Shown one piece after another: positions 1,702 through 3,588 of a stretch of DNA of 64,000 nt. Both the position numbers and the translations under genes were made by a program. Origin of the DNA: Kluyvera intermedia (GTDB taxonomy: Bacteria > Pseudomonadota > Gammaproteobacteria > Enterobacterales > Enterobacteriaceae); NCBI RefSeq assembly GCF_021440345.1, contig NZ_JAKCNS010000019.1, forward strand, positions 62,001 to 126,000, written 5' to 3'. The notes beneath the pieces were generated by a model, which ran no database searches, was not told the origin of the DNA, and was given only the letters and a program-made list of their open reading frames with translations. Numbering within the stretch: position 1 is the stretch's first letter; every line of letters begins with the position of its first letter.

Positions 1702-2658
1702 TTAGTAGCCCATATTTTTCTTCTTCTCTAACTCTTCTTTCGCCGTATCCGGCAGGTAGAGGGTGGACTTGGTCAACGTCACTTTCTCCGGCATGGTGCC
1801 GTCTTTCTTGAATTTCTCCAGCGCATCAAACGCCGGGCCGGCCATATTTGGCGTCAGTTCTACGCTGGCGTTGGCTTCACCGGCAATCATTGCTTTGTAG
1901 ATGTCCGGTACGCCGTCAATCGAACCGGTCAGGATATCTTTACCCGGCTTGAGCCCCGCTTCTTTGATTGCCTGAATCGCGCCGATCACCATGTCGTCGT
2001 TGTGGGCGTAAACCATGCAGATGTTTTTGCCGTTGTTCTCGGCTTTGATAAAGCTCTCCATGACCTCTTTACCTTTACTGCGCGTAAAGTCACCGGACTG
2101 GGAGCGGATAATCTTGATGTTCGAGGCTTTAGAGATAGCCTCGGCAAAACCTTTTTTACGGTCAATCGCCACGCTCGCACCAACCGTACCCTGCAGTTCA
2201 ACCACGTTACATGGCTTGCCGTCTGCGGTTTTAATCAACCATTCGCCAATCAGCTGGCCTTCCAGCACGTTGTTGGCGGTGACGGTGGTCATATAGAGCG
2301 ACGGATCTTTCACATCGATGGAACGGTCGAGCAGGAACACCGGGATTTTGGCCTCTTTGGCTTCTTTCAGTACCGGTTCCCAGCCCGTTGCCACAACCGG
2401 GGCGATAAAGATTGCATCAACACCCTGAGCGATAAACGAACGTACCGCTTTGAGCTGGTTTTCCTGTTTTTGTTGCCCGTCGGCAATTTTCAGGGTGATA
2501 CCGCGTTTTTCCGCTTCCTGCTTCGCGACGTTGGTTTCCGCCGCGCGCCAGCCGGATTCAGAGCCTACTTGTGAAAAACCCACCGTTAAAGGGGCAGCCA
2601 TGACCATAGACGACATGGCTGCGGAAACTGCTGTGACAAGAAGTAAGCGCTTCCACAT
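1702..2658 (-). CDS. ytfQ: Galactofuranose-binding periplasmic protein YtfQ
   Basis: Periplasmic substrate-binding subunit of the galactofuranose importer. The 318 residues match the length and almost all of the sequence of E. coli YtfQ. Residues 1-21 form a signal peptide ending at a cleavage site around VMAAP. The rest is a type I periplasmic binding fold (Peripla_BP_4), with the sugar-binding style motifs FIAPVVATGWEP, FLLDRSID and VYAHNDDM. It is the first gene of the operon and is followed by ytfR. Control probably comes from GalR-like operators, one of which overlaps codons 1-6, and from a CRP-type promoter; both are listed separately. Confidence 0.97.
   Translation of the reverse strand: MWKRLLLVTAVSAAMSSMVMAAPLTVGFSQVGSESGWRAAETNVAKQEAEKRGITLKIADGQQKQENQLKAVRSFIAQGVDAIFIAPVVATGWEPVLKEAKEAKIPVFLLDRSIDVKDPSLYMTTVTANNVLEGQLIGEWLIKTADGKPCNVVELQGTVGASVAIDRKKGFAEAISKASNIKIIRSQSGDFTRSKGKEVMESFIKAENNGKNICMVYAHNDDMVIGAIQAIKEAGLKPGKDILTGSIDGVPDIYKAMIAGEANASVELTPNMAGPAFDALEKFKKDGTMPEKVTLTKSTLYLPDTAKEELEKKKNMGY
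2641..2656. promoter_or_regulatory. GalR/GalS-like operator inside the start of ytfQ
   Basis: The 16-mer with core GTAAGCGCTTCCAC is centred at 2648.5 and overlaps the first codons of ytfQ. It matches the GalR/GalS operator pattern (GTGnAAnCGnTTnCAC) at every fixed position except the first two. It has the same internal placement as the gal operon internal operator. The function is inferred from sequence and position. Confidence 0.55.
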
Positions 2659-2701
2659 AGAGATATCCTCGTAGGGTTATTGTTGGTTAGATATTCATCT
2701 G

Positions 2702-2750
2702 CGGAAAAACTATAGACAATGGGATATGTAACGGAATGAGTTACATCACA
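2702..2750 (-). promoter_or_regulatory. Probable CRP-dependent ytfQ promoter
   Basis: On the minus strand, TATAGT (2714-2709) can serve as a -10 element with transcription starting near 2702. A CRP-like site lies at 2735-2750: AATGA, six bases, then a perfect TCACA half. Its centre at about 2742.5 is near -41, the class II activation position. An overlapping perfect inverted repeat (ATGTAAC, seven bases, GTTACAT, 2726-2746) could bind another dimer. The start site is predicted only. Confidence 0.45.
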
Positions 2751-2881
2751 CTTCATAAAAGTAAATTATTTGTTAACCACCGACACATCGAAGAGTTCAA
2801 GAGGGAGAAGGCGTCACGCACCCATTGAGCGCTATTGGTTTTGTCGAAAAAAAACGCGAGTCAGCGTCATTTTTTGCCGTG

Positions 2882-2897
2882 ATGTAAACGCTTCCAT
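2882..2897. promoter_or_regulatory. GalR/GalS-like operator upstream of ytfQ
   Basis: ATGTAAACGCTTCCAT differs from the gal external operator (GTGTAAACG-ATTCCAC) at only three of 16 positions, two of them the outermost bases. It is centred at 2889.5, about 188 bp upstream of the predicted ytfQ start and 241 bp from the internal operator at 2648.5. E. coli ytfQ has been placed in the GalR regulon, which supports the reading. Confidence 0.65.
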
Positions 2898-3014
2898 GAT
2901 TTTATTCAGTATGCAGCTATGTTTATGGATTTTTCTGTCATAAGAAGCGGCTGAAAAAGGCGGGGTCATGGGGATGAGACGCAAAACAGGCCAAGACTTT
3001 CGCGGCGAGTTGGC

Positions 3015-3020
3015 TATAAT
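3015..3020 (+). promoter_or_regulatory. ppa promoter -10 element
   Basis: A perfect TATAAT lies 41 bp before the ppa start codon. No good -35 hexamer sits 16-18 bp upstream (CAAGAC at 17 bp is poor). Confidence 0.6.
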
Positions 3021-3060
3021 ACCGAGCACTAGTTTGCCATACATTCTAAAGGAAACAGAC

Positions 3061-3588
3061 ATGAGCTTACTCAACGTCCCTGCGGGTAAAGATCTGCCGG
3101 AAGATATCTACGTTGTCATTGAAATCCCAGCTAACGCAGATCCTATCAAATACGAAGTCGACAAAGAGAGCGGTGCACTGTTCGTTGACCGTTTCATGTC
3201 CACTGCGATGTTCTATCCGTGCAACTACGGTTACATCAACCACACCCTGTCTCTGGACGGTGATCCGGTTGACGTTCTGGTCCCAACTCCATACCCACTG
3301 GAGCCAGGTTCAGTCATTCGCTGCCGTCCAGTTGGCGTGCTGAAAATGACCGACGAATCCGGTGAAGATGCGAAACTGGTTGCGGTACCGCACACCAAGC
3401 TGAGCAAAGAATACGATCACATCAAAGATGTGAACGACCTGCCAGACCTGCTGAAAGCGCAGATCACCCACTTCTTCGAGCACTACAAAGACCTCGAAGC
3501 AGGTAAATGGGTTAAAGTTGACGGTTGGGAAAACGCTGAAGCGGCTAAAGCTGAAATCGTTGCTTCCTTCGAGCGCGCGAAGAAATAA
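3061..3588 (+). CDS. ppa: Inorganic pyrophosphatase
   Basis: Cytoplasmic family I soluble pyrophosphatase that hydrolyses PPi to two phosphates and so drives biosynthetic polymerisation. The 175 residues match E. coli Ppa (176) almost throughout. The metal-binding loop DGDPVD supplies Asp66, Asp68 and Asp71 (counting Met). The chosen ATG follows AAAGGA with good spacing and gives the family's N-terminus [10 protein letters not shown]. An in-frame codon at 2968 would add 31 unrelated residues and precede the promoter, so it is rejected. A strong hairpin terminator follows directly. The neighbour ytfP is only 131 bp away; E. coli has the chpSB toxin-antitoxin pair in this gap. Confidence 0.98.

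Follow-up and report, generated by a model that had tools for sequence, protein, structure and literature searches.

Two probable GalR/GalS operators bracket the ytfQ promoter of Kluyvera intermedia

Introduction

The galETKM operon of Escherichia coli carries two GalR operators around a CRP-activated promoter, an external one (OE) at -60.5 and an internal one (OI), in the first codons, at +53.5. Their centres are 113 bp apart, and the CRP site lies 19 bp from OE and 94 bp from OI. Repression of gal is best at operator spacings of 103, 113, 123 and 133 bp, is lost at 108, 118 and 128 bp, and is reduced above about 19 helical turns (PMC4693257). The galP gene of E. coli likewise has two GalR operators, 182 bp apart (PMC5110547, Table 1).

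GalR also binds at E. coli ytfQ, with a ChIP-chip score of 22 for a region confirmed by ChIP-qPCR, from which one operator, at 4449964-4449979, was assigned (PMC5110547, Tables 3 and 4); in expression arrays of the same study, the newly found GalR targets showed little or no regulation by GalR (PMC5110547). The ytfQRTyjfF transporter, whose binding protein takes galactofuranose and L-arabinose, is coordinated with mgl by GalR and GalS and is also stated to be under AraC control (PMC10191376), and arabinose raises ytfQRTyjfF expression in EHEC (PMC11127945). The ppa<>ytfQ region is among the CRP targets predicted by genomic SELEX (PMC3105977), and a cya mutant has reduced levels of ytfQ and ytfR (PMC4512719). 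Here we compare these systems with the ytfQ locus in a 64-kb stretch of K. intermedia DNA (64,000 nucleotides, hereafter the window) and with its counterparts in relatives.

Results

In the direction of ytfQ, an AraC-like repeat is followed by OE, a spacer, a CRP-like site, the hexamer TATAGT, the putative transcription start and OI (Table 1). OE reads ATGTAAACGCTTCCAT (centre 2889.5) and OI reads AAGTAAGCGCTTCCAC (centre 2648.5), so that the two centres are 241 bp apart, as the original prediction had it.

Table 1 Features of the ytfQ promoter region, in window coordinates
Feature	Position	Strand	Basis
ytfQ, galactofuranose-binding protein	1702..2658	-	ORF; annotation of E. coli orthologue
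OI, very probable internal GalR/GalS operator, ytfQ codons 1-6	2641..2656	-	PWM score 14.5; E. coli counterpart in PMC5110547
-10 hexamer TATAGT	2709..2714	-	putative start at 2701 or 2702
CRP-like site TGTGATGTAACTCATT, centre 2742.5	2735..2750	-	conserved in relatives; published CRP listing and cya data
OE, very probable external GalR/GalS operator	2882..2897	-	PWM score 17.6, best in window; conservation
AraC-like direct repeat TGACAGAAAAATCCATA-AACA-TAGCTGCATACTGAATA, 5 bp upstream of OE	2903..2940	-	TCCATA conserved; by-eye comparison with araBAD
ppa, inorganic pyrophosphatase, divergent neighbour of ytfQ	3061..3588	+	ORF listed from 2968; internal start ATG 3061 by likeness to E. coli ppa

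With a position weight matrix (PWM) built from nine published GalR operators, OE and OI obtain the two highest scores in the window, the third being 12.4. In 200 first-order Markov sequences, the mean number of chance matches per 64 kb is 0.285 at a score of at least 14.5 and 0.015 at 17.6 or above. Both sites also obey the published operator rule, a 16-bp dyad GTGNAANC.GNTTNCAC in which positions 3, 5, 9 and 15 are intact and no more than two others mismatch (PMC5110547): on the + strand they carry G, A, G and A at these positions, and their mismatches fall at positions 1 and 2 in OI and at 1 and 16 in OE. OE departs from the E. coli gal OE at three of 16 positions, exactly the number first claimed, and the second site does lie within the first ytfQ codons, with the second-best score.

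The host genome encodes the corresponding regulators, namely a GalR that is 90% identical to that of E. coli and a second protein that shares 57% identity with the same E. coli GalR and agrees with E. coli GalS at its N-terminus. The pattern TGTAANCGNTTNCA occurs exactly seven times in this genome: once as OE, once by galE, twice around galS, twice by a GalP-like ORF and once at C154, the genes being named by likeness to E. coli sequences. The GalP-like ORF is presumably galP, judged by its N-terminus; its operator pair, 182 bp apart as in E. coli, is more closely spaced than the ytfQ pair. The gal locus also retains an OI, 113 bp from the site beside galE, and galR has a site with one mismatch to TGTAANCGNTTNCA beside it. 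OI of ytfQ matches TGTAANCGNTTNCA with one mismatch too, a level at which the pattern is unspecific in the genome (67 matches vs 35 for a reversed control pattern). Two further GalR-like palindromes occur in the same genome, at L229 506-521 (score 16.5) and L233 541-556 (score 15.7), the latter near an ORF that presumably encodes a glycosidase.

Conservation of both sites was followed in 134 loci, which remained of 135 drawn after one without a full start (L010) was dropped. They comprise E. coli K-12, three further same-genus loci and 130 of 182 family matches; the 52 others include some among the matches listed, many of them from genera already sampled, as well as lower-scoring ones. K-12 is counted apart from g140, although g140 is its own genus, and L223 is the same contig stretch as L054 of g140. 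Since the loci are related, their counts are not counts of independent events. OE and OI occur together in 111 loci from 41 genera, OI occurs alone in four, all of one genus (g142), and neither occurs in 18; one g79 locus has an OE-like match at a different place and no OI. Of the 115 examined loci with OI, 111 thus also have OE, admitted at a score of at least 11. Across its ten inner consensus positions, only two of 650 cells differ (65 distinct sequences), while the N and outer positions vary freely.

Among the best 80 of 382 named loci, which overlap the 134-locus set and are no independent sample, both operators are present in 78. The closest named relative among them is Kluyvera cryocrescens, with a 99% identical YtfQ. 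The two exceptions are Klebsiella sp. BIGb0407 (L219), which has neither operator, and Enterobacter sichuanensis (L206), whose ytfQ has a stop at codon 2 that also brings the OI score down to 10.3. This TAG codon (L206 1201-1206) may be a natural mutation or a sequencing error.

The conservation of OI is less telling than that of OE, since OI is present in all 115 loci whose peptide starts with MWKRLL and the coding of this peptide already forces half of the operator (GTGGAARCG). TTA at codon 5 is found in operator-less relatives as well, and we therefore rejected codon conservation as a proof of OI. Loss of the regulator was likewise rejected as the cause of missing operators: 22 of the 23 sampled genomes without OE or OI have a GalR relative at E <= 1e-60, the match in G351 being interrupted by two stops, and G151 has none at this threshold.

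E. coli itself has the external site as well. It lies at 4449817-4449832 (L001 918-933), reads TTGTAATCGCTTTCAT and is 147 bp from OI. Searched for by coordinate and by sequence, it is absent from the main text of PMC5110547, which gives one operator for ppa/ytfQ, in the same gene and at the same internal position as OI here, where we find two sites. Because OI corresponds to the operator assigned by ChIP in E. coli and OE is conserved, both are very probably selected GalR/GalS operators. Genome context, the strong conservation of OE and published GalR ChIP data for the orthologous E. coli gene (PMC5110547) back the claim that such operators lie on both sides of the promoter.

Between the operators, the CRP-like site combines a good left half, TGTGA, with a weak right half, and its spacing to TATAGT would fit a class II CRP promoter. 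Both elements recur in the ppa-linked loci: of 94, 86 have TGTGATGTAAC and 87 have TATAGT no more than 140 bp from the start codon; a simple sigma-70 scan of 2500-3100 found no promoter. If the centre of the CRP-like site is taken as -41.5, +1 falls at 2701 and OI at +53.5, exactly its gal position; if TATAGT is taken as -12 to -7, +1 falls at 2702 and OI at +54.5. The predicted placement of OI near +53.5 is accordingly borne out, relative to a putative start. A perfect inverted repeat, ATGTAAC-N7-GTTACAT, lies at 2726-2746 over the -35 region and overlaps the CRP-like site; it is the sole match in the genome at up to one mismatch, and the version ATGTAAC-N7-GTTACA is present in 81 of 94 ppa-linked loci.

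The AraC site I1-I2 of araBAD follows a consensus of two half-sites, (T)AGC-N7-TCCATA, in direct orientation and separated by 4 bp. The element beside OE has the same layout, TAGC-N7-TCCATA followed by 4 bp and a second TAGC half-site in the direction of the gene. It differs from araBAD in lying far upstream of the CRP site, beside a GalR operator, and in that both half-sites are imperfect, although the TCCATA half is conserved. TCCATA precedes OE by exactly 32 bp in 91 of the 94 ppa-linked loci, the other three matching at five (two loci) or two (one locus) of six positions, and in 79 of the best 80 of 382 named loci. It is absent from this place in all 17 loci that lack ppa, defined as those without a tblastn match in the stretch read, up to 1.2 kb upstream; there the sequence matches at zero to three of six positions, and in six of nine such loci aligned by eye TCCATA lies between OE and CRP instead. 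Several loci without ppa (L103-L123) have a ATGACAGAAGTTTACG-like motif upstream of OE, at the position of the AraC-like element in ppa-linked loci. A strict AraC repeat pattern gave 20 matches genome-wide, vs 30 for its reversed control, and the window site is not among them. Because this pattern is unspecific and misses the window site, the case for AraC binding is built on conservation, resemblance to araBAD and the published AraC and arabinose effects.

The distance between the operators falls into two classes among the 111 loci: 37 have 132-148 bp and 74 have 230-257 bp. In several genera it is 133 bp. One genus, g66, contains both classes. Of 56 genus-distinct values of CRP-OI, 54 fall within 93-98 bp; apart from g42, the classes differ between OE and CRP. 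The other two values, 207 and 218 bp, come from the g42 loci L085 and L088, which have an insertion between promoter and ytfQ with both operators persisting; the other g42 loci have 94-95 bp. OE-OI shows no conserved helical phase among genus-distinct distances (R = 0.27 at 10.5 bp).

OE-CRP distances were obtained for 167 of 214 loci (140 distinct) and amount to 39, 50, 136-138 or 145-153 bp. In ppa-linked loci these distances looked quantised (39, 50, 136-138 and 145-149), and one parsimony assignment gives 20 changes, of which five measure 9-11 bp and none falls within 3-8 bp, with an ambiguous root state. Loci without ppa fill the interval 147-153, and the periodicity of R = 0.61 at 10.8 bp is nearly matched by 0.58 at 12.0 and 0.54 at 9.8. 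The quantisation is suggestive only.

Discussion

Based on the above data, we propose that ytfQ is transcribed from a CRP-activated promoter that is controlled by GalR or GalS via two genuine operators, with loose bridging between OE and OI, a reading in which we have moderate confidence. Our own evidence consists of the sites, their conservation and the regulators in the genome; from E. coli, others have reported GalR binding at the ytfQ promoter region (PMC5110547), lower ytfQ in a cya mutant (PMC4512719) and increased ytfQRTyjfF with arabinose in EHEC (PMC11127945). OI, within the first codons, keeps a constant distance from the promoter, and OE lies far upstream, next to the AraC-like site. 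Without galactose, GalR or GalS on OI would hinder transcription, and GalR dimers on OE and OI would bridge, raising occupancy and repression. Galactose would release the repressors, and arabinose-bound AraC would activate ytfQ. Across the 241 bp found here, the bridge would be a loose cooperative loop and not the tight, phase-dependent gal repressosome; such a looser bridge is possible because the Lac repressor does form out-of-phase loops of about 150 bp (PMC2553838). That OE and OI act jointly in this manner is plausible, the balance being about level.

The two operators may also act separately. OI would then be a downstream block, and OE would mainly control the AraC site, GalR disturbing either AraC itself or the contact of AraC with RNA polymerase and thereby creating a galactose/arabinose switch. 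The rigid 32 bp between TCCATA and OE, set against an OE-OI distance that varies by more than 120 bp, speaks for such a division of labour, as do the arabinose response (PMC11127945) and the AraC control (PMC10191376) reported for the operon. However, OE is independent of the AraC half-site, since the 17 loci without ppa keep it with no such half-site at that place, and the strict repeat pattern misses the window site. We regard separate action as possible but rather unlikely. A related idea, doubtful though in keeping with the acceptance of both galactofuranose and L-arabinose by the transporter's binding protein (PMC10191376), is that OE and the AraC site form a rigid composite element that has shifted by about 100 bp relative to the promoter in evolution, the GalR bridge holding AraC away from the CRP-bound promoter or delivering it there.

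A gal-type repressosome, in which GalR on OE and OI together with HU would close a tight, phase-dependent loop that shuts the promoter, is unlikely in this species. Such a loop requires negative supercoiling besides HU, and repression through both operators. The operators do flank the promoter, and OI stands 94 bp from the CRP centre in both systems, so that this half of the gal-like arrangement originally described holds; the other half does not, OE-CRP being 147 bp here vs 19 bp in gal, with OE adjoining the AraC-like site. The remark that 241 bp is close to 23 helical turns holds as arithmetic but says little, as relatives share no common phase across their two spacing classes. Moreover, 241 bp lies outside the range in which gal looping works well, because repression falls above about 19 turns (PMC4693257), and the two stretched g42 loci keep both sites despite the insertion downstream of the promoter. 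A loop in this species is therefore probably not gal-like. E. coli, with 147 bp or about 14 turns, and the genera at 133 bp, an optimal spacing for gal repression, could nevertheless form a gal-type loop, since these spacings fit the published range (PMC4693257).

Two further readings are highly improbable. The distance of OE from the ppa start is 166.5-172.5 bp in 93 of the 94 ppa-linked loci (145.5 bp in one), and OE might serve divergent ppa instead of ytfQ. We rejected ppa as its target: the 17 loci in which the stretch read shows no ppa retain OE, as do nearly all loci having OI, and OE so goes with ytfQ. That the main binder is another LacI-family repressor, as 38 first-look candidates for GalR relatives in the genome and the CG pair usual at the centre of LacI-family motifs (PMC4052901) would allow, is opposed by the ChIP signal of GalR at ytfQ in E. 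coli (PMC5110547) and by the exact TGTAANCGNTTNCA matches, six of seven being OE or sites by galE, galS and the GalP-like gene.

OI is already known in E. coli, and OE is apparently an unreported second operator. Among the papers listed by full-text searches on GalR or GalS with ytfQ, no title or abstract concerns a ytfQ operator pair; an earlier report is possible, for example in subscription journals.

Returning to the two-operator reading, a conserved second operator is hereby added to a GalR target at which binding was seen with little or no regulation (PMC5110547). The natural series of spacings, with OE-CRP at 39, 50, 136-138 and 145-153 bp and OE-OI from 132 to 257 bp, supplies ready-made variants for asking how GalR bridging depends on distance, and these variants also suit the question whether the signals from galactose and arabinose converge on the OE/AraC element. 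Should the composite reading prove true, ytfQ would integrate galactose and arabinose through a movable loop.
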